Part shown: positions 21,952-35,353 of the stretch, piece by piece
Layout: each line of letters starts with the position of its first letter
Position numbering within the stretch: position 1 is the first letter of the stretch
DNA from: a virus
Direction: 5' to 3' (one strand)
Length of the DNA: 37,458 nt
Virus record (IMG/VR): IMGVR_UViG_3300035070_002537
Coordinates: 1-37,458 of that record
The notes under the pieces: generated by a model
Told to the model about the DNA's origin: nothing
Database searches by the model: none
The model's input: only the letters and a program-made list of their open reading frames with translations
Made by a program: the position numbers and the translations under genes

Positions 21952-21985
21952 GATCTTATCCCAAATCGTTATTAAACACGCCATG

Positions 21986-22444: not shown

Positions 22445-22490
22445 ATTATCTCTGATCACCAACACTAAGTGAAATACCGTTTTGTTATAA
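22445..22490 (-). promoter_or_regulatory. Matched early promoter 1 (leftward)
   Basis: Minus-strand reading: the box TAACAAAACGGTATTTCAC ends in -35 TTCACT (22,468-22,473), then 17 bases, then -10 GATAAT (22,445-22,450). The transcript would start about 30 bases before the ParB-like gene. The upstream part of the box contains the stop codon of the preceding gene. It is one of four near-identical promoters. Confidence 0.8.
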
Positions 22491-22826
22491 CGATATAACC
22501 AAACGCTTTAAAACATCATTAGCCGCACGCACATCCCACGCCAAACCATCAAACTGCGACCAGTCGAACGGCTTGATCTTGCGCGGCTCTATAAGCCCAT
22601 CAGCCCTGCGTTTGTTATAATCCCGCTGCCGCTTTAGCTCGCGGTCTAACTTGCGGCGGCAGACTATGCACGTCTTATCTCGGTACAGCTTACCGGACGT
22701 GCTAGTCTCACGTAGTCTAAAATCATCTGGCGTAAGAGAGCCGTTTTTTGGATTAAAACACCTGTCATCACGCGCGCATGACATCCCGTCCTGCGGTCTT
22801 ACAAACACGCCGGCGTATCTAGCCAT
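22485..22826 (-). CDS. Small Cys-containing early protein (113 aa)
   Basis: The protein is basic, with cysteines at about residues 17, 23, 53 and 56. The last pair forms K-T-C-I-V-C-R-R-K, like half of a zinc ribbon, followed by an Arg/Lys-rich helix (R-E-L-K-R-Q-R-D-Y-N-K-R-R). A zinc-binding nucleic-acid role is plausible. No HNH or known domain is complete. A GGGAGG ribosome site precedes the start. It follows the 61-residue gene by 51 bases and is probably transcribed with it. Its stop codon lies inside the next promoter box. Confidence 0.6.
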   Translation of the reverse strand: MARYAGVFVRPQDGMSCARDDRCFNPKNGSLTPDDFRLRETSTSGKLYRDKTCIVCRRKLDRELKRQRDYNKRRADGLIEPRKIKPFDWSQFDGLAWDVRAANDVLKRLVISL

Positions 22827-22877
22827 AGCTCTACCCTCCCGGATTCAATGTCTTTTATGAGTTGTTCCTATGCCTGG

Positions 22878-23063
22878 TTAATAAATGCCTCTTTCACCAC
22901 GTCTCATTGAGTGATCCGTATAGTTTCCTTCGCACCCACATTTACAGCCAACCAACTCACGAGGATAATACCCGGTTTTTGACTTTTCACCTTCCGCGCA
23001 ATGCTGAATTTTTCCACCGTTCCTCAGGAACTCTTCAACCTGGCTTGCAACTTGATCTTTCAT
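22878..23063 (-). CDS. Small Cys-rich early protein (61 aa)
   Basis: The N-terminus is a helix with V-E-E-F-L-R-N-G-G-K-I-Q-H-C. The second half carries G-C-K-C-G-C-E-G-N-Y-T-D-H-S-M-R-R, giving cysteines at 22, 40, 42 and 44. Small phage proteins with a V-E-x-F-L-x-x-G-G start are thought to be regulators, but their partners are unknown. A GGAGAT ribosome site is correctly placed. It is the first gene behind the matched promoter at 23,099-23,144. Confidence 0.62.
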   Translation of the reverse strand: MKDQVASQVEEFLRNGGKIQHCAEGEKSKTGYYPRELVGCKCGCEGNYTDHSMRRGERGIY

Positions 23064-23098
23064 TTTTCTTATCTCCGATTTCGTTATTCGATGGTTTC

Positions 23099-23144
23099 AG
23101 TATAGGTATCCAGTTCGGTGTTGTGAAATATCGTTTTGTTATAA
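23099..23144 (-). promoter_or_regulatory. Matched early promoter 2 (leftward)
   Basis: Minus-strand reading: the box TAACAAAACGATATTTCAC ends in -35 TTCACA (23,122-23,127), then 17 bases, then -10 TATACT (23,099-23,104). It differs from copy 1 by one base in this 19-base word. It drives the 61-residue gene and lies just beside the origin-like region. Confidence 0.82.
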
Positions 23145-23170
23145 AAAAACATAATCAAATAACAAATTTT

Positions 23171-23271
23171 AGCTGCTTAGTGCTAAATAGTGTCAGGATA
23201 GTGAGACAAAACTGCTCTACAACCCGCGCCAGCTGTGAGGTTAGTCTAAATAGTCAGATTAGCTAAAGATA
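23171..23271 (+). repeat. Left arm of origin-like inverted repeat
   Basis: It carries AATAGTG at 23,186 and GATAGTG at 23,197 (11-base spacing), AACCCGCGCC at 23,221-23,230, then TTAGTC/ATAGTC nine bases apart and GATTAGCTAAAGA. All of these elements recur in reverse complement at 23,530-23,630. Confidence 0.8.
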
Positions 23272-23400
23272 ATATCATAAAAAAATCAGCTAACATGCTA
23301 AAAATTAGCTAAGTCATTGAAATATATAACGATAGTGCTGGATAGTGACAGGATAGTGTCGATAAGTTATTGATTTATATAACGATAGTCTGAATAGTAG

Positions 23401-23419
23401 GATAGTATAAGATACTATC
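23401..23419. repeat. Perfect hairpin GATAGTAT-AAG-ATACTATC
   Basis: An eight-base inverted repeat with a three-base centre lies in the middle of the origin-like region and reuses the ATAGT word of the iterons. No T-tract follows, so it is more likely a protein-binding site or origin structure than a terminator. Confidence 0.7.
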
Positions 23420-23529
23420 TAAAAAGAGGTGTGGTTTTTAATTATCTATATTATAGATGTGGTTATACCTACCAATATCTCTATATTATATATATATATA
23501 TATAGATCTATAGTAAGTTAGTTTCTAAC

Positions 23530-23630
23530 TTGTCTTTAGCTAATCTGACTATCCTGACTATCGTTAGCATTGGCGCGGGTTACAGAGCGATTTTCTTCAC
23601 TATTCTGTCACTATTCAGCACTAACTAGCC
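23530..23630 (-). repeat. Right arm of origin-like inverted repeat
   Basis: Read on the minus strand it gives TTAGTGCTGAATAGTGACAG, a second ATAGTGA 11 bases on, CGCTCTGTAACCCGCGCCA, then two ATAGTC copies nine bases apart and AGATTAGCTAAAGA. This follows the left arm element by element. The arms differ by point changes and small indels. Confidence 0.8.
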
Positions 23631-23634
23631 AGTT

Positions 23635-23669
23635 TCCAAAAAGAACAAAACCAGCGCGAGGGCTGGTTT
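23635..23669 (-). terminator. Terminator after the primase gene
   Basis: Minus-strand reading: AAACCAGC and GCTGGTTT form a perfect eight-base-pair stem around a six-base loop, followed by TGTTCTTTTT. It lies 33 bases after the primase stop and would shield the origin-like region from leftward transcription. Confidence 0.75.
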
Positions 23670-23701
23670 CAGTGGTTACTATAGCATTTGTGGCGTATGT
23701 G

Positions 23702-25978
23702 TCAACAAGCAAAATACCTATCTACCGGTTTTTTATTTGCTGGGTGCTGATCCTGCACTATGTGCAACAAATTGTTATCAACCAGGGATTTTACGCCACG
23801 CTCGACGGCAGCGCGTTTGTGCGGCCTGCATCGATTAACGATGACGCCCATTGTTTCGCCGTGGTCTTTTGTGACGCATGACATAATACGCGCTAAAACA
23901 GCATCTGAAGCGTTTTTGTCGTGCTCCTGCACGTTAGCATGGGCGAGCATTAGTTTATGCTCAACATCGAGCATGGCGAGCTTATACGCATATCTAACAT
24001 GCTCAGACTCTCTAACCCCTGTTGGCGCGGCTAATATTGTGCTTATCTTTGCGCATAACTCATAACCTCGGCGTGGGATCGCCTCCAACCCTGACCGGCC
24101 TTTGTGCAGCTCAGCCAGATCCCAAAATTTTTGATAAACCTGGTCAAGCATGCCTGCCGCCTCGCTTGTCGTTAGTATTTTTATGCGATCGCCAAAATAC
24201 TCTATCCTGTCCTCACCAAGGACAGAGCATTCTCCTGGCGCCACCAGGCCAATTATTTTTAATCTGAGATTTTCCGGCATATCGGGTTTTTTAAAATGCT
24301 TTTTGCGTTGAGGGTTAGTCTCCAGCTCACTAAAAATCAACGCACGCGACATAAAACCGTTTGTTGCTTGCTCAAAATCCATCAATCCGTTAAATGTCAC
24401 TGGTGTGGTAAAACCGATCATTGACAAAAAAGGGCGCTCTAAGCCATGCTCTATGTTGTCTAGTGCGTGCTCCAGCTGTTTTACTCTGCGAGTGTGGCGG
24501 CCACCTGGATCATCGTTTTCTGAGATTTTTTTATTACACTGCGACATTTCGCCAAGCAATATTTTTTTAACCTCATCCCTAACATCGCCGCTAACAGGCA
24601 TAAAACCTGTGGCTTTTGAGTAGGCCATCATGATGATGCCCAGCAAATCTTCTAAATAAGACGCCCCGCCCTTGGTTTGCGCGTTGATTATCTTTTTTAC
24701 AGTGATACCCAGCTCGTCAATCATATAGCTGCACATCTGATGCCTAAGCAAATTCCTGACGACTTCCTGACCCGACTTCATTGCGCCATGCATTGCTGGC
24801 GTTAGCTCACCGGCGCGCATTATCTGCATGTATGCTTGCTGCACAGCCTCTTTGCCGGTAGATGACCCGGACACGCAAAACGCCAGCAGATTGGTTGATA
24901 TATTATCATGCGTATCCTCGTATCGCAGACCACACAGGTTGCCGACCGCAACCAGGGCAGCGGCGACAGCTAGCGACTCTCGTGGATAGAGGCATTGACT
25001 ATTGATCCACGCGCATACCTCGCCGACAAAACCCGGAGGCCGCTTTATGTCCACGTTATTTGTGTCAATGTCTCCTGTATCGTCTACGGAGTCAAAAACT
25101 GCATCGCTGATAAACGTCACTGACTCCCAAGGTGCCACCCATCCGCCATAAACGGCATGGTGTATCAGCGTACCTAGCGTGGCAGGCGTGGCCGATTTAC
25201 CAAAACTGTGCCAGCGCCTGGGCATCTCGGACGGGTTATATTTGTCGCTACGCTGGCTCCACTCATCCCATAAATCGTAGCCGGTACCACCTGTCCCATG
25301 GTGTATTGCCATGCCGATCAGTAACCAAAACTCATAATCAACATCTTTGTTTTGGATAAATTTTAACAAATCACGTATGTCTTCAATCGTCATATCGACT
25401 GTATGGCCGTTGTGCGTAGTCCTGTGTGTTGCCGGTTTTGCGAGTAGATCAAGCAACGCTTTTGGCGCTGGTGTTATATCGGCTGGCGATCCATACAAAA
25501 CTTCGTAAGTATTTCCGCTCGCGTGCAACGATCCCGGACCGACAACAAAACCACTACTCTTAAAATCAATCCCGTCATAGTCGTGGTGATGCTGTACTAA
25601 AGCCACGTCCGGAGGGACGCTAAAATACAGGTGTTTACTGGCACCACCAGACCCGGTTTTAACAATAAGTCCGGCCCCGGCAATCTCCGGCACAGCCTCG
25701 AGCAACACTACGTATGAGTCTGCGCCGCCATTGCGCTCATCAACGTCAATCACTAGCAGTCCGGCACACAAAACGCCGTACCCGGTGCTAAACTGGCCCA
25801 TCAGCTCCATTGTTTCCAGCTGGTCGTCAGACCACAATGGCGAGTGTTGCCAGTTTGCCGCAATCGGGTGTTTTCCGGGCACTGGACAATCCACACGCCC
25901 GCATGTGCACTGTCCGTTTTTGACTGGGTTTAACCCAAAAACACGATATCCAGAATAAATAAAGTCGTTATATATCAT
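23702..25978 (-). CDS. Primase-polymerase/helicase replication protein (758 aa)
   Basis: An N-terminal archaeo-eukaryotic-type prim-pol domain (about 1-185) has C-T-C-G-R-V-D-C and the catalytic L-L-V-I-D-V-D-E-R (77-82). It also has S-G-G-A-S-K-H-L-Y-F and G-F-V-V-G-P-G-S. A PriCT-like helical part follows (about 195-275). The C-terminal half looks like a DUF3987-type helicase, with S-G-S-S-T-G-K-E (370-377) as Walker A and M-I-D-E-L-G (419-424) as Walker B, ending in a winged-helix-like tail. It should open the origin, unwind DNA and make primers. It is translationally coupled (ATGA) to the Cro-like gene and lies next to the origin-like region. Confidence 0.85.
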   Translation of the reverse strand: MIYNDFIYSGYRVFGLNPVKNGQCTCGRVDCPVPGKHPIAANWQHSPLWSDDQLETMELMGQFSTGYGVLCAGLLVIDVDERNGGADSYVVLLEAVPEIAGAGLIVKTGSGGASKHLYFSVPPDVALVQHHHDYDGIDFKSSGFVVGPGSLHASGNTYEVLYGSPADITPAPKALLDLLAKPATHRTTHNGHTVDMTIEDIRDLLKFIQNKDVDYEFWLLIGMAIHHGTGGTGYDLWDEWSQRSDKYNPSEMPRRWHSFGKSATPATLGTLIHHAVYGGWVAPWESVTFISDAVFDSVDDTGDIDTNNVDIKRPPGFVGEVCAWINSQCLYPRESLAVAAALVAVGNLCGLRYEDTHDNISTNLLAFCVSGSSTGKEAVQQAYMQIMRAGELTPAMHGAMKSGQEVVRNLLRHQMCSYMIDELGITVKKIINAQTKGGASYLEDLLGIIMMAYSKATGFMPVSGDVRDEVKKILLGEMSQCNKKISENDDPGGRHTRRVKQLEHALDNIEHGLERPFLSMIGFTTPVTFNGLMDFEQATNGFMSRALIFSELETNPQRKKHFKKPDMPENLRLKIIGLVAPGECSVLGEDRIEYFGDRIKILTTSEAAGMLDQVYQKFWDLAELHKGRSGLEAIPRRGYELCAKISTILAAPTGVRESEHVRYAYKLAMLDVEHKLMLAHANVQEHDKNASDAVLARIMSCVTKDHGETMGVIVNRCRPHKRAAVERGVKSLVDNNLLHIVQDQHPANKKPVDRYFAC

Positions 25979-26148
25979 AAATTCCCCGCACTTACTTTGA
26001 GTTTGCCGCCTGTCTTTACCTGGATCTCATATTGCTTGCTTTTTGGTGGGTACTCACCCCACTTATAGATGGCGTGTGGCCATATATCTAACGCCGTGGC
26101 CAGTTCTTTAATGCCGCCAAAAAAATCTATCGCTTGCTGTGTCTTCAT
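25975..26148 (-). CDS. Cro-like transcriptional regulator (57 aa)
   Basis: I start at 26,148 (M-K-T-Q-Q-A-I-D-F-F), which has AAGGA nine bases upstream. A longer frame to 26,184 would begin inside the promoter. The F-F-G-G-I-K-E-L-A-T-A-L-D-I-W-P-H-A-I-Y-K-W helix-turn-helix is typical of lambda Cro/CII-style small repressors, and Y-K-W-G-E-Y-P-P is the usual recognition-helix end. It is the first gene leftward from the divergent switch and probably binds the palindrome there. There is no partner CI repressor in the window. Confidence 0.82.
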   Translation of the reverse strand: MKTQQAIDFFGGIKELATALDIWPHAIYKWGEYPPKSKQYEIQVKTGGKLKVSAGNL

Positions 26149-26177
26149 ACTTTTTAATCCTTTTGTTAATAAATTTG

Positions 26178-26206
26178 TTGACAATACTATAACGCGTTAT
26201 TAGTAT
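26178..26206 (+). promoter_or_regulatory. Rightward promoter for the recombination/early operon
   Basis: A consensus -35 TTGACA (26,178-26,183), 17 bases, then -10 TAGTAT (26,201-26,206). The first gene starts at 26,251 behind GAGGAGAT. This is the best sigma-70-like promoter in the window. Confidence 0.85.
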
Positions 26207-26207
26207 T
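26183..26207. promoter_or_regulatory. Operator palindrome in the divergent switch
   Basis: ATAACGCGTTAT (26,189-26,200) is a perfect 12-base palindrome in the shared spacer. It extends outward as AATACT / TAGTATT with one extra base on the right side. A dimeric Cro-like protein bound here would cover both promoters. Confidence 0.7.
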
Positions 26208-26212
26208 TGCAA
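26184..26212 (-). promoter_or_regulatory. Leftward promoter for cro-like and primase genes
   Basis: Minus-strand reading: -35 TTGCAA (26,207-26,212), 17-base spacer, -10 TAGTAT (26,184-26,189). It overlaps the rightward promoter almost completely and in the opposite direction, so both cannot be occupied at once. Confidence 0.75.
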
Positions 26213-26250
26213 CGCAGAGTAGGAAATTAACCCAATGAGGAGATAAATAA

Positions 26251-27006
26251 ATGAGCATATTGAGCTCTATTTCAAAGCCCGTTGACCGTCCGGTCATTGG
26301 CACAATTATAGGCGATGCAGGTCTAGGTAAAACCAGTCTGGCATGCACCTTTCCAAAACCCATCATTATCAGAGCAGAGGACGGTTTACAGGCGATCCCA
26401 TCCGACAAGCGACCTGATGCTTTCCCCGTCATACACAAAGAGTCCCAACTCTGGGATCAGTTGATCGCACTACTGCAGGAGCAGCACGACTATAAAACCG
26501 TTGTGATAGACTCAGTAACAGCGTTAGAGAGGCTGTTCATTCAACACGTAGTTGATAGTGATCCCAAAAACCCGCGCACGATTAACCAAGCATTAGGCGG
26601 TTATGGCGCAGGATTGGCAGCGGTTGGCGCTATGCACCAGCGCGTAAGAAAAGCGGCTGGCATGCTTAATGAGCGTAAAAACATGAACGTCGTCTTTGTC
26701 GCACACGCTGACACTGAAACAATCGAACTGCCAGATCAAGATCCGTACACACGCTACAATCTGCGGCTTGGTAAACGTAGTTCCGCGCCGTATGTCGATG
26801 ATTCTGACTTTGTGGGGTTCCTGAAACTGGAAACTTTTACAACAGGCGATGGCGAGCGCAAAAAAGCCATAAGCGATGGCACGAGGGTTTTAGTCACCTA
26901 TGCAACCGCTGCCAGCGTGAGCAAAAACCGCTACGGGATCACAGAAGACTTAATCGTTAAACAGGGCGAAAACCCACTTGTAAATTATATCGGAGCATTG
27001 AAATGA
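26251..27006 (+). CDS. Sak4-like RecA-fold ATPase (251 aa)
   Basis: This is a small P-loop ATPase with Walker A G-D-A-G-L-G-K-T (21-28) and Walker B T-V-V-I-D-S (83-88). The G-L-G-K-T form and the single-domain length fit the Sak4/AAA_24 group of phage recombination proteins, which act with an SSB to anneal or exchange single strands. It opens the rightward operon, overlaps the SSB-like gene by ATGA and is followed by a YqaJ exonuclease. Together they make a complete recombination module. Confidence 0.82.
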   Translation: MSILSSISKPVDRPVIGTIIGDAGLGKTSLACTFPKPIIIRAEDGLQAIPSDKRPDAFPVIHKESQLWDQLIALLQEQHDYKTVVIDSVTALERLFIQHVVDSDPKNPRTINQALGGYGAGLAAVGAMHQRVRKAAGMLNERKNMNVVFVAHADTETIELPDQDPYTRYNLRLGKRSSAPYVDDSDFVGFLKLETFTTGDGERKKAISDGTRVLVTYATAASVSKNRYGITEDLIVKQGENPLVNYIGALK

Positions 27007-27530
27007 GTTTTTGGAATTTATCGGACAACACTGCAATTGAAAAAACCGGCGAATTTGAGTCAGGCGGCGGCGGGTTTGAGCCGTTGCCAAATAACACAGA
27101 TTGCCTGGCGGCGGTAGATGAGGCGAAGTGGGATAGCCACGAAGGTGAAGAGTATATAAGCCTTCGTTGGGTTGTCTTGAAGCCTGACGGCTACAAGGGC
27201 CGTAAGATTTTCCAGAAGATCAAAGTCAACGAGTCCGACAGCAAAAAGGCAGACAAGGCAAAGCGAATGCTTGCCGCTATTGACACCAATGCTGGCGGTA
27301 AGCTGATGGCTAGTGGTGAAGCGCCTACAGATTTGAGTTTGATGCAGTCGCTGTCTAACAAGCCGATGGTTATCAAGCTGATGATCTGGGAAATTGACGG
27401 TAAGCGCGGGAATTGGGTTTCAAAAGTCAGTCCAAAAAAGGCAGCACCTGCACCAGCACCAGTGCCAGCACCAGTGCCGGTTAAAGAAGAAGTTATTGAA
27501 TATGATGATGATGATGATATTCCATTTTAG
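27003..27530 (+). CDS. Single-stranded-DNA-binding-like protein, DUF669 type (175 aa)
   Basis: The body (about 1-140) matches the DUF669 style of phage proteins next to Sak4 genes (Y-I-S-L-R-W-V-V-L-K-P-D-G-Y-K-G-R-K-I-F). A Pro/Ala-rich linker (A-P-A-P-A-P-V-P-A-P) leads to an acidic tip, D-D-D-D-D-I-P-F. This is the classic SSB C-terminal peptide that recruits recombination and replication partners. It is probably the phage SSB. The linker is encoded by a short near-repeat of GCACCAGCACC. Confidence 0.82.
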   Translation: MSFWNLSDNTAIEKTGEFESGGGGFEPLPNNTDCLAAVDEAKWDSHEGEEYISLRWVVLKPDGYKGRKIFQKIKVNESDSKKADKAKRMLAAIDTNAGGKLMASGEAPTDLSLMQSLSNKPMVIKLMIWEIDGKRGNWVSKVSPKKAAPAPAPVPAPVPVKEEVIEYDDDDDIPF

Positions 27531-27544
27531 TCATTAACCAATCA

Positions 27545-27563
27545 TGGCCGCAATGCGCGGCCA
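27545..27563 (+). other. Perfect hairpin before the exonuclease gene
   Basis: TGGCCGC-AATGC-GCGGCCA forms a seven-base-pair GC-rich stem between the SSB-like stop and the AGGAGA ribosome site of the next gene. No T-run follows, so it is not an obvious terminator. It may stabilise mRNA or tune translation. Confidence 0.55.
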
Positions 27564-27581
27564 ACAATCAGGAGAACAATA

Positions 27582-28451
27582 TTGGAACAAAGATCAGAGG
27601 AATGGTTTGAGGCGCGTAAGTGCCGTGTTACTGGATCTGTAGTGGGCGCTATTTTAGGCCTCAATAGCTGGATGACCGCAGACGATGTGATGCGTCAAAT
27701 GGTTAGGCAGTATCATGGTGCGGATCGTGAATTTAAGGGCAATGTTGCCACTGAATACGGCTCGTTTCACGAAAACGGCGCATGCCGTGATTATGAAATG
27801 GAGACCGGAAACAGGATTGAAGAGTGCGGGTTTTTTGTGCATGAGGACTGGCTTGGAGCGTCACCGGACGGGCTGCTGGACAACGGTGGACTGATCGAAA
27901 TTAAGTGCCCGTACTCGTTGCGTGACAACAAGCACCCTATCTTTAAAACACCAGAACAACAGCCGCACTATTACGCACAGATGCAAATTGAGATGTTTTG
28001 TGCTGGTCGCCAGTGGTGCCATTTTTACCAGTGGACACCGTTTGCAACCAGTTTGGAAACTGTGTTTAGAGATGATGAGTGGCTGATTCATAACGTGCCG
28101 ATACTGCGCAAATTTTATGATGATTATCTTGTTGAGCGTCAGCCAGTTAACGCTAAAAAACATCTTGAAGAGAAGGTGAAGCAGGTGAACACGTTACGCG
28201 CAAAAAAGCTGGTAGAGGATTATCAGAAATTAACGGAGCTGATAAAAGATGCGGAGCAGCGGAAAAAGGACGTGCTTTCAGAAATGGTAGCTATCTGCGG
28301 CGAGCGAGACAGCGAGATTCACGGTCATAAGCTGACGAAAGTTAGCAGACAAGGCGCGGTTGCTTATGCGCAAGTGGTTAAAGAGCACTGCAAAGGTGTT
28401 GATTTAGAGCAGTACCGTGGGAAGCCATCTGAGTATTGGAGGTTTAGCTAA
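27582..28451 (+). CDS. YqaJ-type viral recombinase/exonuclease (289 aa)
   Basis: The start codon is TTG at 27,582, chosen because AGGAGA lies a few bases upstream and the family opening (E-Q-R-S-E-E-W-F-E-A-R-K) begins there. Nuclease residues are visible as G-A-S-P-D-G (D96) and L-I-E-I-K (E106, K108), the lambda-exonuclease/PD-(D/E)XK pattern. The C-terminal third is a charged coiled coil. It resects double-stranded ends to give the single strands used by the Sak4 and SSB proteins. The stop overlaps the next start. Confidence 0.88.
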   Translation: MEQRSEEWFEARKCRVTGSVVGAILGLNSWMTADDVMRQMVRQYHGADREFKGNVATEYGSFHENGACRDYEMETGNRIEECGFFVHEDWLGASPDGLLDNGGLIEIKCPYSLRDNKHPIFKTPEQQPHYYAQMQIEMFCAGRQWCHFYQWTPFATSLETVFRDDEWLIHNVPILRKFYDDYLVERQPVNAKKHLEEKVKQVNTLRAKKLVEDYQKLTELIKDAEQRKKDVLSEMVAICGERDSEIHGHKLTKVSRQGAVAYAQVVKEHCKGVDLEQYRGKPSEYWRFS

Positions 28452-30187
28452 TGCTCCGCCCATACCAACAAGCCGCACACGATGCGGCTATTTCAACCAT
28501 AAAAAAATGCCTCGACCCTGTGTTGATCGAGGCGGCAACCGGCAGCGGGAAAAGCCACATCATTGCAGAGATAGCAAAAACGCTGCACAAAGTAAGCAAC
28601 GGTAAAAAAATATTATGTTTAGCACCGAGCGCCGAACTTGTTGTCCAAAACCGAGAAAAATACCTGGCAACCGGAAATCCTGCTAGTGTTTTTTCAGCGT
28701 CAGCAGGTGGCGCTTGTTTGCGTCATCCAGTGGTTTTTGGCACACCAGGCACCGTTAAAAATAAAATAGAAAGATTCGGCCCAGAGTTTTGCGCTATTGT
28801 GTTAGATGAGGCGCACAGGATAACGCCAACGGTTATTACAATCATAGAATCAATACAGTCTGTTAATCCAAACCTGCGGATTATTGGATTGTCTGCAACG
28901 CCTTACCGCCTTGGAAGCGGGTATATCTATGATTTCGATGAAAAAATGCGAAAGATGGACGAAACAATAGATCCATATTTTAAGCAGCGTGTTTATACTG
29001 TTGGTGCGCATGAGCTTATATGTCAGGGGTTTCTAACGCGTCCAGTCATCGGCGGGATAAACGCTGAAAACTACGACACAAAAAACATGCAGTTAAACAG
29101 CATGGGCAAGTTTAACCAAGCTGATATAGATCAAGCTTTTCACGGGCAGGGGCGCAAAACCGCGAAGATCATCGCGGATATTGTTGACCAGTCGCGTGAT
29201 AGGTGTGGCGTTATGATATTTGCAGCGACAATACAGCATGCTAATGAGTGCCTTGAAAGTTTGCCGCCTTCGCTGTCGGCCATTGTGACTGGTGGCACCA
29301 GCAAAAAAGAAAGGGCGGCGATACTGAAAAGATTTAAGTCACGGCAGATTAAATATCTAGTTAACGTGTCTGTGTTAACGACTGGGTTCGACGCCCCTCA
29401 TGTTGATGTTGTTGCGATACTGCGAGCCACTGAGTCTGTGGCATTACTGCAACAAATAATAGGGCGCGGGTTGCGCATAGATAGCGGTAAAACTGACTGC
29501 TTGATACTGGACTATGCGGAAAACGTTGATAGGCACTGTCCAGACGGGGATCTGTTTGACCCTGACATTACAGCAAAAAAGAAAGGTGACGGCGGCGCAC
29601 TGCCGGCTAAATGCCCAATGTGCAACTATGAAAACCTGTTTGCTGCGAGGCATAACGATGACGGGTTTGCGGTTGATGAGTTTGGCTATTTTGTTGATTT
29701 ATCAGGGCATAGAATAGAGACCGAGTTTGGTGAAATGCCAGCACACCACGGGAGGCGCTGTAATGGTGAATTACTGATAGCTGGCAGGTTTACCAGGTGC
29801 GCTTACAAATGGACGTTTAAAAAATGCCCAGAATGCGATGCTGAAAACGATATTTCGGCACGGTATTGCAGTGCGTGCAAGTGCGAAATTGTTGACCCAA
29901 ACGAAAAACTGCGGATTGAATTTAAAAAACTGAAAAAAGATCCTACAAGATTGCAGACTGACAGCGTTGTAGAGTGGTCGTACTGCGAAACAATTAGTAG
30001 AGCCGGTAACGAGGTGTTAAAAGCGACATACAGAACAGAGCACAGAACATTTGAGGTGTGGTATAACGCAAAAATGAAACGTGATCTTGATCTTTTTTTA
30101 GATGCAAAAGAGCGGGGCATAAAAACTATCACATACAAAAAAGATACTGATTCACGGTTTTATAAAATTTACGCATACAACCAATAG
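28451..30187 (+). CDS. SF2 DEAH-type helicase with zinc-ribbon tail (578 aa)
   Basis: Helicase motifs are complete: Q-like L-R-P-Y-Q, Walker A E-A-A-T-G-S-G-K-S (27-35), D-E-A-H (119-122), L-S-A-T-P (147-151), T-T-G-F-D-A-P (310-316) and Q-Q-I-I-G-R-G-L-R (334-342). After it come cysteine pairs C388/C391 and C459/C462 with C473/C476, which read as zinc ribbons. Related phage helicases act in replication or recombination. The gene shares one base with the exonuclease gene and belongs to the rightward operon. Confidence 0.9.
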   Translation: MLRPYQQAAHDAAISTIKKCLDPVLIEAATGSGKSHIIAEIAKTLHKVSNGKKILCLAPSAELVVQNREKYLATGNPASVFSASAGGACLRHPVVFGTPGTVKNKIERFGPEFCAIVLDEAHRITPTVITIIESIQSVNPNLRIIGLSATPYRLGSGYIYDFDEKMRKMDETIDPYFKQRVYTVGAHELICQGFLTRPVIGGINAENYDTKNMQLNSMGKFNQADIDQAFHGQGRKTAKIIADIVDQSRDRCGVMIFAATIQHANECLESLPPSLSAIVTGGTSKKERAAILKRFKSRQIKYLVNVSVLTTGFDAPHVDVVAILRATESVALLQQIIGRGLRIDSGKTDCLILDYAENVDRHCPDGDLFDPDITAKKKGDGGALPAKCPMCNYENLFAARHNDDGFAVDEFGYFVDLSGHRIETEFGEMPAHHGRRCNGELLIAGRFTRCAYKWTFKKCPECDAENDISARYCSACKCEIVDPNEKLRIEFKKLKKDPTRLQTDSVVEWSYCETISRAGNEVLKATYRTEHRTFEVWYNAKMKRDLDLFLDAKERGIKTITYKKDTDSRFYKIYAYNQ

Positions 30188-30197
30188 GCCGACAGAT

Positions 30198-30605
30198 GTG
30201 AAGTTTAATCCAGATATACCAGTTTATGGGGATACATCATATAGAGGGCCGTGCGCCTCTGAAACTAACGAGCAAACCACGTTTTTTAATGAGTTGCGGC
30301 GCAAGTATCCAGACATTGCGCTAATCGCTCTGCACCCTCGTAATGAGGGTAAACGCACGTATCAACAAGCGATGAGGCATAAAGCTGAAGGCATGGCCGC
30401 CGGTGCCAGTGACATTATTATTTGTGGTTCGCCAACGTTTGTTTGTGAGCTAAAGCGGCAGGATCACACCAAAAGCAAATGGCAGGACAGCCAGGAAGAT
30501 TTCTTAACGACGGCTAAAAGCTACGGCGCTTTTGTGTGTGTAGCACTTGGTTATAAAGCAGCGTTAGAGGCGTTAGAAAGATGGCTAGAGTTACAGATCA
30601 GGTGA
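30198..30605 (+). CDS. VRR-NUC domain nuclease (135 aa)
   Basis: This small PD-(D/E)XK nuclease of the VRR-NUC group has an N-terminal E-x-N-E-Q-T-T-F-F helix, then H-P-R-N-E-G-K-R, G-A-S-D-I-I-I (catalytic Asp) and F-V-C-E-L-K-R (catalytic E-x-K). VRR-NUC proteins in phages are structure-specific endonucleases, possibly resolvases. The start codon is GTG at 30,198; no better ATG is in frame. It follows the helicase by ten bases and overlaps the next gene by 25. Confidence 0.85.
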   Translation: MKFNPDIPVYGDTSYRGPCASETNEQTTFFNELRRKYPDIALIALHPRNEGKRTYQQAMRHKAEGMAAGASDIIICGSPTFVCELKRQDHTKSKWQDSQEDFLTTAKSYGAFVCVALGYKAALEALERWLELQIR

Positions 30606-30820
30606 TAGAGGTTTTGCATAACAAGCGTAACTATGATGATTTAAACGACTCAGGCCGATCTGTCATATCGTTGCACATATACATTGCAGCGGCGCATGTT
30701 ATGACGTTTAAAACCAGAGAAGAACGGCGGCAAGAGCTTAGCAGGATGCCGGAGACTATCAGGCCAATGGTGGAGCTGGAAGTTCTCAAACTATGGAATA
30801 AGAGCCGCAAACGCTTATAA
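30581..30820 (+). CDS. Small helical phage protein (79 aa)
   Basis: The protein is charged and helical, opening M-A-R-V-T-D-Q-V-I-E-V-L and containing R-E-E-R-R-Q-E-L-S-R-M-P and M-V-E-L-E-V-L-K-L-W. Similar small proteins follow VRR-NUC or helicase genes in many phages, but no function is known. Its start lies 25 bases inside the nuclease gene. Its TAA stop is part of the matched promoter box that follows. Confidence 0.62.
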   Translation: MARVTDQVIEVLHNKRNYDDLNDSGRSVISLHIYIAAAHVMTFKTREERRQELSRMPETIRPMVELEVLKLWNKSRKRL

Positions 30821-30860
30821 CAAAACGGTATTTCACAGCCCAGCTAATAGGGGCTATATT
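30815..30860 (+). promoter_or_regulatory. Matched early promoter 3 (rightward)
   Basis: The box TAACAAAACGGTATTTCAC (30,818-30,836) ends in -35 TTCACA (30,832-30,837), then 17 bases, then -10 TATATT (30,855-30,860). The 19-base word is identical to copy 1 on the other arm. It drives the 141-residue gene and the helicase-methylase, clamp and dUTPase genes. Confidence 0.82.
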
Positions 30861-30887
30861 TACAACACACACAACGGAGACAGAGAA

Positions 30888-31313
30888 ATGAAAATACAAG
30901 AAACGGATTGGATTGAGTGGGACGCATCGGGAAAAAAATGCGGAGACCTTCCACAAGGCATTACTGATGGCACGATGGTTAAGGTCGCATTTGATAGCGG
31001 TTCTACTGGCGATATATTGCAGGCCGGTGAGTTGTATTGGGGTGATTCTCTGGCTGGGCCTATCAAAAAATACAGGATTTGCACCTTAGTCCCAGACACA
31101 CCAGCGAACACAAACAAATACAGCCGCATGATTGCGCCAGGCGTATATGTTGATGTGTACGATGTACTAAAAGCTTTTGGCGTTAAGTGTCCAGCATTAC
31201 AACACTTGATTAAAAAAGCTTTGGCAGCTGGAAATAGAGGCCATAAAGATTTGTTGACCGACTTGGACGACATTATAGACAGCGCACACAGGGCGAAGGA
31301 GCTTGCAAAGTGA
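30888..31313 (+). CDS. Conserved phage protein upstream of the helicase-methylase (141 aa)
   Basis: The first half is beta-rich (W-I-E-W-D; G-T-M-V-K-V-A-F-D-S-G). The second half is helical with V-Y-D-V-L-K-A-F-G-V-K-C-P-A-L-Q-H-L-I-K-K and L-D-D-I-I-D-S-A-H-R-A-K-E-L. The C-P-A-L-Q-H-x-x-K-K-x-L-x-x-G segment recurs in small early proteins of many phages, with unknown function. It is the first gene from promoter 3, has a GGAG ribosome site and overlaps the next start by ATGA. Confidence 0.65.
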   Translation: MKIQETDWIEWDASGKKCGDLPQGITDGTMVKVAFDSGSTGDILQAGELYWGDSLAGPIKKYRICTLVPDTPANTNKYSRMIAPGVYVDVYDVLKAFGVKCPALQHLIKKALAAGNRGHKDLLTDLDDIIDSAHRAKELAK

Positions 31314-33511
31314 ATTATGAATCTTTCATAAAAACAAAAGAGTTTATACCGGTTGTTTCTGGGTTTCAGGTTGATGTTTCTACACTGAATAGCAATCTGT
31401 TTGATTTTCAGATTGCCATAGTTGAATGGGCATTAAAGCGAGGGCGAGCCGCATTATTTGCAAACACAGGGCTAGGAAAAACAATAATGCAAATGTCATG
31501 GGCTGATGCTGTTGTAAACAAAACTGATGATCCAGTGCTGGTTGCCGCGCCGTTAGCGGTTGCGAAACAGTCAGTAAAAGAGGCTGCAAAGTTTGGCATA
31601 GAAGTTGAATATGTTAGAGATCATCCAAGCGTTTTAAAAAGCAAAATTTATATCACAAACTATGAAATGCTTGATAATTTCAACATGGATGACTTTTCTG
31701 GGATTGTATTAGATGAGTCTAGCATCATTAAAAACAGGGATGGAAAGACTAGAAAAGCAATCATCGATAGTTGTTTGAATGTGCCTTACAAGCTTTCATG
31801 CACTGCAACGCCAAGCCCTAACGATTACATGGAGCTAGGCAACCAGTGCGAGTTTTTAGGCATTATGTCTATGACTGAAATGTTAGCCATGTTTTTTACG
31901 CACGATGGCGGTGAAACCAGTAAGTGGCGATTAAAAGGGCATGGTGCGCGTAAATTTTGGGAATGGATGTCAACATGGGCGATCACGATAACAAATCCTA
32001 GCGATATAGGTTTTGATGGTTCGCGATATGTGCTAGACCCATATTTGATGCACGAGCATCAAGTGAAATCGCCAGTTTCTGACAATCAGTTATTTGCTGA
32101 TATTGCTCAAACACTAACGGAAAGACGCGCAGCAAAAAAAGCAACCGTAGATGCAAGGGTTGATGAAGTTGCTAAGTTGTGCAATGAGTCAGACGAACAA
32201 TGGATAGTGTGGTGCCACACGAACGATGAATCGGCCATGCTATCTAAATCAATTATTGGAGCGGTTGAGGTTAAAGGTTCTGATTCTATTGAGCATAAAG
32301 AGTCTGCGATGCTTGGATTTTCTGACAATAATTTTAAGGTTTTAGTAAGCAAGCCTTCTATATGCGGATTTGGCATGAACTGGCAGCACTGCCGTAATAT
32401 GGCTTTTGTTGGGCTTGATGACAGCTACGAACAGATGTACCAGGCTATCAGAAGATGCTGGAGATTCGGTCAGGACAAGGTTGTTAATGTTCACATCATA
32501 ACCGCCGAATCATTGGGAGCAATAAAACAGAACATCGAACGAAAGGAAAAACAAATGGAACAAATGCAGATAGCTATGGTTGATCATATGCGAGAGTCGA
32601 TGCAGAAAGAAATAAAAAGCGCAGGGATTGAGAAAACAGATTACAACCGGAGAGTTGAATTAGGTGCTGATTTTGAAATACATAACGCTGACTGCGTGCA
32701 TTTAGCTAGTGAAATAGAATCTAATACCGTTGGGTATACTATTTTCAGCCCGCCATTTGCATCATTGTACACGTACAGCAATAGCGATTATGACATGGGT
32801 AATGTCAAAGATGATGAAGAGTTTTATAAGCAGTTTAGGTTTCTTGTCAAAGAAATGCTAAGAATAACCAAGCCTGGGCGATTGCTTTCTTTTCATTGCA
32901 TGAACCTTCCGACAAGCAAACAAAATAACGGGTTTATAGGTATTCGTGATTTCAGGGGTGAGCTAATCAGAATGTTTGTGGATGAGGGGTGGATATATCA
33001 TTCAGAGGTGTGCATCTGGAAAGACCCGGTAACAGCAATGCAACGAACAAAGGCTCTTGGCTTGCTGCACAAAACGATTAGGAAAGACAGTTCAATGAGT
33101 CGCCAGGGGATTCCTGACTTTTTAGTGACAATGCGCAAGCCTGGCGACAATGACGACCCTATCAGTCATACGCATGATGAGTTTCCTGTTAGCCTGTGGC
33201 AAAAATACGCCAGCCCTGTCTGGATGGACATTAACCCATCCAGGACTCTAAATTACAGAGATGGTCGAGATGATGACGATGAGCGCCACATTTGCCCATT
33301 GCAACTTGATGTGATCGAACGAGGGTTAGAATTGTGGAGCAAGCCTGGTGATCTTGTTTTTAGCCCATTTACAGGGATAGGGTCAGAGGGTTATTGCGCG
33401 GTAAAGGCAGGCAGAAGGTTTATCGGATCAGAACTAAAACCAAGTTATTTTGATTTGGCAATAAAAAACATTCAATCAGCATACAACACAACAATGGATC
33501 TATTCGCATGA
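31310..33511 (+). CDS. SNF2-like helicase fused to a DNA methyltransferase (733 aa)
   Basis: The N-terminal two thirds form an SF2 ATPase: Walker A A-N-T-G-L-G-K-T (51-58), D-E-S-S (135-138), T-A-T-P (165-168) and Q-A-I-R-R-C-W-R-F-G-Q (378-388). A charged linker helix (about 405-450) leads to a methyltransferase. Its catalytic S-P-P-F (480-483) comes before the cofactor motif F-S-P-F-T-G-I-G-S-E-G (684-694), the permuted order of beta-class enzymes. S-P-P-x motifs are frequent in N4-cytosine methylases, but the target base is not certain. It may protect phage DNA from restriction or mark replicated DNA. It overlaps both neighbours by ATGA. Confidence 0.85.
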   Translation: MNYESFIKTKEFIPVVSGFQVDVSTLNSNLFDFQIAIVEWALKRGRAALFANTGLGKTIMQMSWADAVVNKTDDPVLVAAPLAVAKQSVKEAAKFGIEVEYVRDHPSVLKSKIYITNYEMLDNFNMDDFSGIVLDESSIIKNRDGKTRKAIIDSCLNVPYKLSCTATPSPNDYMELGNQCEFLGIMSMTEMLAMFFTHDGGETSKWRLKGHGARKFWEWMSTWAITITNPSDIGFDGSRYVLDPYLMHEHQVKSPVSDNQLFADIAQTLTERRAAKKATVDARVDEVAKLCNESDEQWIVWCHTNDESAMLSKSIIGAVEVKGSDSIEHKESAMLGFSDNNFKVLVSKPSICGFGMNWQHCRNMAFVGLDDSYEQMYQAIRRCWRFGQDKVVNVHIITAESLGAIKQNIERKEKQMEQMQIAMVDHMRESMQKEIKSAGIEKTDYNRRVELGADFEIHNADCVHLASEIESNTVGYTIFSPPFASLYTYSNSDYDMGNVKDDEEFYKQFRFLVKEMLRITKPGRLLSFHCMNLPTSKQNNGFIGIRDFRGELIRMFVDEGWIYHSEVCIWKDPVTAMQRTKALGLLHKTIRKDSSMSRQGIPDFLVTMRKPGDNDDPISHTHDEFPVSLWQKYASPVWMDINPSRTLNYRDGRDDDDERHICPLQLDVIERGLELWSKPGDLVFSPFTGIGSEGYCAVKAGRRFIGSELKPSYFDLAIKNIQSAYNTTMDLFA

Positions 33512-34494
33512 AAATTACAGTAGCAAAAAACAGCATAATGCCAATTTTGAAAAAAGCGGCAAAAGTCTCTAACGCAAAATCAACTGTTATGATTTTGGGC
33601 CATGTTGCAATCAAATCGTCTGGCGGAATTTTGAATATTACCGCAAACGACAGCAGGAAAACCTATTCAGAATCTTGTGAATGTTCTGGCGATGACTTTG
33701 CTATGACTCTTGACTTGCAAAAACTGGTCAGGGCTGTAAACGCATTTAAATCTGGCGATATTGACATTTATGATGACGGACATGTAAACCAGGGGCGCTC
33801 AAAAATACAGATTGACCATCTCCCTTACGATCATTTTCCAATGCCAAATTACGAAAAAGCAGAAAAAACATCGTTAAAAAGTTCTGATTTAAATGCTGCT
33901 ATCGCTGTTGTGTCGCATGCTATGGCGGTTAAGGATGTTAGGCCGATGCTTAATGGTATACACCTTACCAGTGGTTATGTTGTTGCAACAGACGGGCATA
34001 GACTTGCGTATTTGAAATCAGACTATGACGGTATTGACTTGATCATCCCATCAGATGCAGCTAATAGCATAAACATAGATGGTGATGTTTATGTTTCTGA
34101 AAATCAGCTAATTGTTAGAAATTATAATTCTGTGTTTTCGACTGGGCTGCTAACGTCCAGATACGTTGATTGGAGGAGGGTGCTGCCATCTGGTAACGAA
34201 GATTCAATGTTTGTTTTGAGAAAGTCATTATTAGATGCGCTTGATATGTGCTCAATAAGTGAATCAAAAGTTTTGTTCACGATAAAAAATGGAGATCTTA
34301 AATTATCAAACAACGGATCAGAGGTTTTTGTCGAGATTGATTCAAAAATTGATATGCAAATTGGATTTAATATTCAATATTTTCAGGATGCATTGAGAAT
34401 GATTGAAAAAGAAACAATAGAAATAAAGTTTTTTGGAGAATCAAAACAGATTTTGATTGAAGATTCTTTTGTAATAATGCCAATGAGGGTTTAA
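33508..34494 (+). CDS. DNA sliding clamp, DnaN-like beta subunit (328 aa)
   Basis: The protein follows the beta-clamp plan. Domain 1 includes V-M-I-L-G-H-V-A-I-K and an F-A-M-T-L-D-L-Q-K-L strand. The most telling segments are D-V-R-P-M-L-N-G-I-H-L, V-V-A-T-D-G-H-R-L-A-Y and I-I-P-S-D-A-A, which mark the middle domain. The C-terminus, S-F-V-I-M-P-M-R-V, matches the conserved last strand. It is shorter than the bacterial clamp (about 366 residues). As no polymerase is seen, it probably tethers host polymerase III, or replaces the host clamp to favour phage DNA. It is coupled to the helicase-methylase gene by ATGA. Confidence 0.85.
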   Translation: MKITVAKNSIMPILKKAAKVSNAKSTVMILGHVAIKSSGGILNITANDSRKTYSESCECSGDDFAMTLDLQKLVRAVNAFKSGDIDIYDDGHVNQGRSKIQIDHLPYDHFPMPNYEKAEKTSLKSSDLNAAIAVVSHAMAVKDVRPMLNGIHLTSGYVVATDGHRLAYLKSDYDGIDLIIPSDAANSINIDGDVYVSENQLIVRNYNSVFSTGLLTSRYVDWRRVLPSGNEDSMFVLRKSLLDALDMCSISESKVLFTIKNGDLKLSNNGSEVFVEIDSKIDMQIGFNIQYFQDALRMIEKETIEIKFFGESKQILIEDSFVIMPMRV

Positions 34495-34496
34495 CA

Positions 34497-34961
34497 ATGC
34501 ACAAAATAACGATGATACCGAAGCAAAGCGTGTTAAATGCCAGAATGATCAAATTCAAAAAACTACACGAACTGGCAAAGATTCCTGCTAGGGCAACCGC
34601 CGGCAGTGCAGGCTTTGACTTGTACGCCATATCGCACTGCATTATCTGGCCTTTTGCACAGGTTAAAATAGCCACCGGGATCGCTACTGCTATCCCGGAA
34701 GGATATGCAGGATTTGTCTGGCCGCGATCTGGAATGGCTGTTAAACACGGTATAAATGTGCATGCTGGGCTGATTGATAGCGACTACAGAGGTGAAGTGC
34801 ACGTTTGCCTGATCAACCACGGTGATAAGATGGTTGAGATTTACCCGGGTGATAGGATTGCTCAGCTAGTCGTTAGTGCTGTGATGACAGAGGCAGTAGA
34901 AGTTGATGAGCTGGATGACACTGAAAGGGGCATCGGCGGTTTTGGGAGTACTGGCGCATGA
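34497..34961 (+). CDS. dut: dUTP diphosphatase (154 aa)
   Basis: All five dUTPase motifs are intact: A-G-S-A-G-F-D-L (35-42), P-R-S-G-M-A (76-81), G-L-I-D-S-D-Y-R-G (91-99), P-G-D-R-I-A-Q-L (117-124) and R-G-I-G-G-F-G-S-T-G (144-153). The trimeric enzyme turns dUTP into dUMP, which lowers uracil in new DNA and feeds dTTP synthesis. It starts three bases after the clamp gene and overlaps the next gene by ATGA. The length is normal for bacterial and phage enzymes. Confidence 0.95.
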   Translation: MHKITMIPKQSVLNARMIKFKKLHELAKIPARATAGSAGFDLYAISHCIIWPFAQVKIATGIATAIPEGYAGFVWPRSGMAVKHGINVHAGLIDSDYRGEVHVCLINHGDKMVEIYPGDRIAQLVVSAVMTEAVEVDELDDTERGIGGFGSTGA

Positions 34962-35158
34962 AGACAATAACGTTAGATGAATGGAGAAACATAAATGGAC
35001 TAAAGTGGATAACGATAGCCAGACTACTATCAGAGCAGTGCCGTGGTCCGATCTACGAAGGCAGGCTGAACAAGCTACGCAGAGGGTCGCCGCCGACGAT
35101 GGACGAATTGGCTGCACTTATGAAGTTAACGTCTAATCAGTGTGATTCATATAGCTAA
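34958..35158 (+). CDS. Small basic protein, possible helix-turn-helix (66 aa)
   Basis: The opening L-D-E-W-R-N-I-N-G-L-K-W and the basic centre Y-E-G-R-L-N-K-L-R-R-G-S-P-P-T-M-D-E-L-A-A-L-M-K resemble a compact DNA-binding helix bundle. I cannot place it in a family. It is the last gene of the unit driven by promoter 3, and promoter 4 follows directly. Confidence 0.55.
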   Translation: MKTITLDEWRNINGLKWITIARLLSEQCRGPIYEGRLNKLRRGSPPTMDELAALMKLTSNQCDSYS

Positions 35159-35194
35159 ACGGTATTTCACACCAGAGTCACGGACGACTATAGT
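35155..35194 (+). promoter_or_regulatory. Matched early promoter 4 (rightward)
   Basis: AAACGGTATTTCAC (35,157-35,170) keeps the right part of the box, but the left part is changed (AGCT in place of ATAACA). -35 TTCACA (35,166-35,171), 17 bases, -10 TATAGT (35,189-35,194). It drives the run of small genes starting at 35,222. Confidence 0.75.
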
Positions 35195-35221: not shown

Positions 35222-35353
35222 ATGACACACAGAAACTACATACAAATCAGAGCAATCAAACGTTACGCACATTCACTGCACACAGACTGCGAAACAGCAG
35301 CACGGATGTGGTGTGAACATGGATTGGCAGCACAATGGGCGGAGCAGAATTAA
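35222..35353 (+). CDS. Very small early protein (43 aa)
   Basis: The frame opens M-T-H-R-N-Y-I-Q-I-R-A-I-K-R-Y and ends A-A-Q-W-A-E-Q-N. It follows AGGAGAA at a good distance and is the first gene behind promoter 4. It is basic and His-rich at the N-terminus and helical toward the end. No family is recognised. The strong ribosome site and promoter argue that it is translated. Confidence 0.6.
   Translation: MTHRNYIQIRAIKRYAHSLHTDCETAARMWCEHGLAAQWAEQN

Follow-up and report, generated by a model that had tools for sequence, protein, structure and literature searches.

Layout of the Window

The window, i.e., the whole stretch of DNA analysed here, spans a 37.5-kb virus record. Its left arm, on the minus strand, carries the genes of the terminase, a phrog_156 portal, the scaffold, the major head protein, the ejection protein and the endolysin; in the middle, the genes of a DNA primase and of a P22-Cro protein face an operon of Sak4, SSB, a RecE-like exonuclease, a helicase and a nuclease; and the right arm contains a helicase-methyltransferase, a clamp and a dUTPase. 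The helicase and the DNA methyltransferase are fused in a single 733-aa ORF (31310-33511), which is 48–55% identical to proteins of very different phages. As shown in Table 1, four promoters sharing one long upstream box are distributed over both arms, while the cro/sak4 intergenic region has a promoter of another kind, which encloses the palindrome ATAACGCGTTAT (26189-26200), unrelated to the box. With this promoter in addition to the box promoters, the phage has two promoter types.

The AT-rich gap between the primase and box 2 (23145-23702) contains TAGTGCTAAATAGTGTCAGGATAGTG-like repeats in direct as well as inverted orientation and looks like a replication origin; GATAGTAGATAGTAG repeats occur in the equivalent gap of phage H103. 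At the primase end there is also a near-consensus extended -10 promoter, TTGACA-16-TATAGT (23705-23646, minus strand), whose predicted start would land on a terminator-like hairpin, and which may possibly give a small RNA or an origin primer.

Table 1. Box promoters and neighbouring features of the window.
Feature	Position	Strand	Details
Box promoter 1	22445..22491	-	Box 22491-22468, dyad 22488-22474; upstream of ParB-like ORF (ATG 22408)
Box promoter 1 hexamers		-	-35 TTCACT 22473-22468; -10 GATAAT 22450-22445
113-aa ORF	22485..22826	-	TAA stop within box 1
61-aa Cys-containing protein	22878..23063	-	First gene after box 2; SutA-domain match
Box promoter 2	23099..23145	-	Box 23145-23122; upstream of 61-aa ORF 22878-23063
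Box promoter 2 hexamers		-	-35 TTCACA 23127-23122; -10 TATACT 23104-23099
P22-Cro family protein	25975..26148	-
Early-type promoter TTGACA-17-TAGTAT	26178..26206	+	cro/sak4 intergenic region; not a box promoter
Small gene G_79	30581..30820	+	Ends inside box 3
Box promoter 3	30814..30860	+	Box 30814-30837, dyad 30817-30831; upstream of ORF 30888-31313
Box promoter 3 hexamers		+	-35 TTCACA 30832-30837; -10 TATATT 30855-30860
L_66, 66-aa HTH-like protein	34958..35158	+	Stop codon within box 4; candidate regulator
Box promoter 4	35148..35194	+	Box 35148-35171; upstream of ORF 35222-35353
Box promoter 4 hexamers		+	-35 TTCACA 35166-35171; -10 TATAGT 35189-35194

The Four Box Promoters

First of all, the four matched promoters of the original prediction are present where it had placed them. 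The 19-mer TAACAAAACGRTATTTCAC occurs exactly at 22469-22487 (-), 23123-23141 (-) and 30818-30836 (+), and with two mismatches at 35152-35170 (+); at three mismatches or fewer, these four matches compare with 0.03 expected by chance, and four were reached in none of 100 shuffles. Within the whole record, exact copies of the 12-mer ACGRTATTTCAC are found only at the four box sites. Every site has the parts of a sigma70-type core, that is, two hexamers (the -35 being TTCAC[AT]), the predicted spacer of exactly 17 bases, and a -10 with A at position 2 and T at position 6; an RBS and an ATG then follow 21–30 nt past the predicted start at all four. Upstream genes had been predicted to end inside the box, and they do, but in three cases (stop codons at 22485, 30820 and 35158) rather than two. 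A scan for consensus promoters alone does not make these sites distinctive, with 24 promoter-like sequences in the window vs 32 in shuffles; what distinguishes them is the shared box, the exact spacer, their placement and their recurrence elsewhere.

Box 3 leads into ORF 30888-31313 and then the helicase-methyltransferase, clamp and dUTPase. Between the gene after box 1 and the terminase lies a strong terminator-like hairpin (22077-22056), so that the structural block is not necessarily driven from box 1. Just past this hairpin, the leader of the terminase small subunit contains a degenerate box-like sequence (21955-21978, matrix score 23) without a -10.

Recurrence in Other Phages and Contigs

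The relaxed box, WTAT-NNC-WAAACGNTATTT[C/A]ACA-N17-TATNNT, is found one to five or more times per genome, on both arms, in about 12 metagenomic contigs and at least seven cultured Pseudoalteromonas siphophages. The box core together with its -10 led to contigs with several variants, and the relaxed pattern and the matrix then gave the 12 or so. The contigs carrying the box with a -10 at 17 bases are unrelated ones, and a search for direct relatives of ORFs flanking the window's boxes gave none. Short-query blastn located the box in the Pseudoalteromonas siphophages PS_L5, SL25, Pq0, HS1, HS5, PHS3, PHS21, C7 and AL, mostly in annotated intergenic gaps. Whole-genome scanning of seven of them (PS_L5, SL25, Pq0, HS1, PHS3, C7 and AL) gave two to five strong sites each, with a 17-base spacer and on both arms, while the complement control gave 0; no box was seen in the whole-genome scan of H103, a phage of the same host species.

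The original prediction had taken a box longer than a -35 to suggest binding by a phage regulator or a phage-modified host polymerase, had described a dispersed early regulon and had proposed a matrix search of relatives. Conservation in other phages supports a dispersed regulon with such a long box, and the search yielded the recurrence in the contigs and Pseudoalteromonas phages just described; lack of conservation, which had been named as one of the observations that would speak against the prediction, is not what was found. The four sites are real and belong to a wider, apparently undescribed promoter class. An Rfam search returned nothing, and no description of the box was found in the open-access literature or in the records of the HS1/SL25/AL group; as far as this literature shows, the motif is new, while its general kind, the phage activator promoter, is known.

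The placement of the sites is equally regular. An RBS and an ORF lie 10–40 nt past the predicted start at 41 of 45 sites, vs 6% at random, and because some sites were picked with the -10 in view, it is this placement at gene starts that counts as independent evidence. In addition, the box stands behind different genes and in different reading frames and runs past their stop codons, which shows that it is conserved at the DNA level. Five further records with boxes have a G_79 homologue, and in each of them the box or a variant comes after it (six records with the window), while relatives of G_79 in further contigs have no box behind them. The box is not linked to the primase/Cro/Sak4 module: 51 relatives of this module, partial contigs among them, contain 0 boxes in 571 kb.

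Other repeated sequences were met in the same searches. The exact 17-mer gave 23 matches in viral contigs, mostly belonging to another repeated leader (ATATCGAAACAAACAAAACGATATTTCACCAC...) without a -10, and these were set aside. A repeated leader different from the box, ATATCGAAACAAACAAAACGATATTTCACCACTTAAAAAACAA, lies mostly right before the ATG in many virus contigs (L008-L010, L012-L016, L018, L019, L021, L024, L026 and L027). Box variants also occur within the structural operon (L142-L147, in G001 and G009, e.g., at G001 36012 and G009 42913) in the form TTTAGAACAAAACGGTATTAGACAGGAGGCCC...TATGGT with a G/T-rich leader behind it, and there too the upstream genes stop in the box.

Anatomy of the Box

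The matrix of 34 sites reads WTAT, NNC, WAAACG, N, TATTT, [CA]ACA, 17 bases and TATNNT, with columns TAT, A, A and TATT at 2 bits; since the sites were partly picked by pattern and -10, part of its spacing signal is selection. When a matrix of the box only is used, 61 of 75 matches have [TG]ANNNT at a spacer of 17, and no other spacing has more than 8. The third base of the -35 is C or A, with G in 1 of the 34 sites, and the -35 beside the box is almost never TTGACA, the hexamer carried by the control-region promoters of several box phages.

In the Pseudoalteromonas phages the box contains an inverted repeat, ATAAC-N5-GTTAT, which abuts the -35 and is centred near -42/-43. Exact ATAAC-Nd-GTTAT occurs at d = 5 in 19 cases in seven genomes, which are related, so that the cases are not independent; each other spacing has about one. 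Many Pseudoalteromonas sites are perfect, the window's sites keep four of the five half-site pairs, and many metagenomic sites have ATTCC as the left half. Pooled over the 34 sites, the dyad symmetry is modest (0.48 complementary, other centres reaching 0.51), and this was counted against a simple palindrome reading. The arrangement has the geometry of a class II activator site, that is, a dyad abutting the -35 and centred at about -41.5 to -43.

Operon Context and Timing

In phage AL, the right-arm box comes right after an intrinsic terminator, the downstream operon includes lysozyme, and the left-arm box is just beyond the primase end on the circular map. Likewise, the right-arm box of the Pseudoalteromonas phages stands behind the early/recombination block and starts the operon with lysozyme. 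From these positions, the box sites look like the starts of post-early operons. The original prediction had described an early regulon, and this label is doubtful for the box sites: the cro/sak4 control region uses a different promoter, the boxes lie outside that region with a -35 off consensus, and the Pseudoalteromonas right-arm box comes after the early block.

Proposed Mechanism and Alternatives

The recurrence of the box, the spacer and the gene-start layout points to one shared regulator of non-early phage genes, and the pairing of a non-consensus -35 with a fixed operator next to it is suggestive of activation. We consider it probable that the box defines a conserved class of phage promoters, in which an operator and a sigma70-type core would serve post-early operons under a phage helix-turn-helix activator. 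The core would consist of an imperfect -35 (TTCACA/TTTAACA), a spacer of exactly 17 bases and a -10 of the form TATNNT; directly upstream would lie an operator of about 15 bp, WTATNNC-N4-CGNTAT, ideally ATAAC-N5-GTTAT. Its binder would be a small helix-turn-helix protein that acts as a dimer, is most likely phage-encoded and may recruit host RNA polymerase via sigma region 4, like lambda CI at PRM. Several separate operons of both arms would thus be switched on in concert, later than the control region with its early promoters of consensus type.

Known systems share parts of this design. At lambda PRM/OR2, where CI acts as a class II activator, the operator dyad at about -42 likewise adjoins a poor -35 with a sigma70-type -10, but the box class comprises several dispersed promoters on both arms, with no recognised CI. 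T4 middle promoters, a post-early class, are also dispersed and have a conserved box by a degenerate -35; the MotA box, however, replaces the -35 and lies near -30, whereas the window's box, which is longer and in part palindromic, precedes a -35-like hexamer that is kept, and no MotA or AsiA was found among the proteins scanned, a subset of the ORFs. In P2 (Ogr/delta) and Mu (C), one type of phage activator site serves several late operons, as the box would do; Ogr, in contrast, is a zinc-finger protein with sites centred near -55, and there is no Ogr relative among the proteins scanned. The stoperators of mycobacteriophage L5 resemble the box as short conserved sites at gene ends, oriented with transcription, but have no promoter cores, whereas 41 of 45 box sites lead into an RBS and an ORF. 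A further counterpart is the Pseudoalteromonas HS1/SL25/AL group, which shares the box class, the 17-base spacer and the two-arm layout with the window but has the fuller dyad and a left-arm -35 of TTTAACA, its replication and structural genes being mostly unrelated to the window's.

As for the protein, no family common to all box phages was found. The best local candidate is L_66, and a narrower form of the preferred reading, to which we give a tentative and rather low probability, holds that the window's lineage uses L_66 as its regulator. Its homologues in G001, G004 and G009 lie 5–600 bp upstream of a box, two of three further homologues found by protein alone have a box 37 bp downstream, and its AF2 model (pLDDT 85) is compact and helical, with XRE proteins as the best matches in the PDB. 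Against this, every PDB match has an E above 1, L_66 is absent from the Pseudoalteromonas box phages and G006, and its adjacency to the box may merely reflect the end of the previous operon.

Other proteins were tried and rejected. The Cro-like protein is unlikely to own the box: its homologues in the partial contigs L037, L038, L039, L046 and L048 are 65–67% identical and accompanied by 0 boxes, and its divergent promoter carries ATAACGCGTTAT, with a gap of 2 bases vs 5. G_79 was dismissed on account of its homologues with no box behind them. phrog_16845 (108 aa) and phrog_27187 (81 aa), which all seven box phages of Pseudoalteromonas have and which a search of H103 did not find, show no DNA-binding signature and are absent from the window. 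The 61-aa protein after box 2 matches the SutA RNAP-binding domain PF20661 (E 2e-7; 30.5 bits, cut-off 29.3), for which binding to RNA polymerase has been described (PMC9300723). It has the SutA motif VEEFLRNGGKI and then a CxC..C cluster, but lacks the acidic N-terminal region and is thus not a full SutA; the protein is suggestive of polymerase modification, and as a common factor it was rejected, since among the box phages it occurs only in the window.

The box could also be the operator of a repressor, with a phage HTH protein sitting beside and over the -35 in coordinated shut-off. The dyad does abut the -35, and XRE-type proteins are encoded in the control regions examined of most box phages. 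Repressed promoters, however, usually keep strong hexamers, and here G at the third -35 position is nearly absent while the control-region promoters keep TTGACA; moreover, the operator stops at the -35 and covers neither the -10 nor the start. We therefore regard repression as unlikely and infer activation.

A host transcription factor whose site was borrowed by different phages would explain why the box phages, whose replication modules differ completely, have no regulator family in common. However, 369 gammaproteobacterial genomes, among which Pseudoalteromonas was not counted separately, gave 5 box matches vs 5 control matches, so that at the sensitivity tested the box is not a host regulon. 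Of the single matches in these genomes and in GTDB contigs, some have no proper -10 (G266, G315, G057 and G082 among the host matches) and others lie inside ORFs, and one in Pseudomonas putida (L133/L138), before a host GntR-type gene, was taken as chance. H103 infects the same host species without the box. A host factor is a still less probable reader of the site. Plain strong sigma70 promoters, duplicated in the genome with an A-rich UP-like stretch and no regulator, would fit the A-rich core AAAACG and the AT-rich stretch with TTGAC at the equivalent place of H103, but are improbable, since the box is position- and base-specific, stays conserved in genomes whose flanking sequences are unrelated, and has a -35 kept off consensus.

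Significance of the Promoter Class

Under the preferred reading of a phage-activated promoter class, the question raised is which protein reads a site common to unrelated phages that have no recognisable common regulator. The modules of the box phages include DnaB-, RepL- and primase-type replication and both sipho- and P22-like structural genes. It is conceivable, though we would not assume it, that a single promoter code is common to otherwise unrelated aquatic phages and is read by a factor that has spread among phages; if this is true, inserted accessory genes would carry the box too, and phages infecting the same cell could switch on each other's late genes. In summary, the box provides a simple sequence rule marking where operons begin in a large group of aquatic phages with poor annotation, and this rule also covers cultured Pseudoalteromonas phages.
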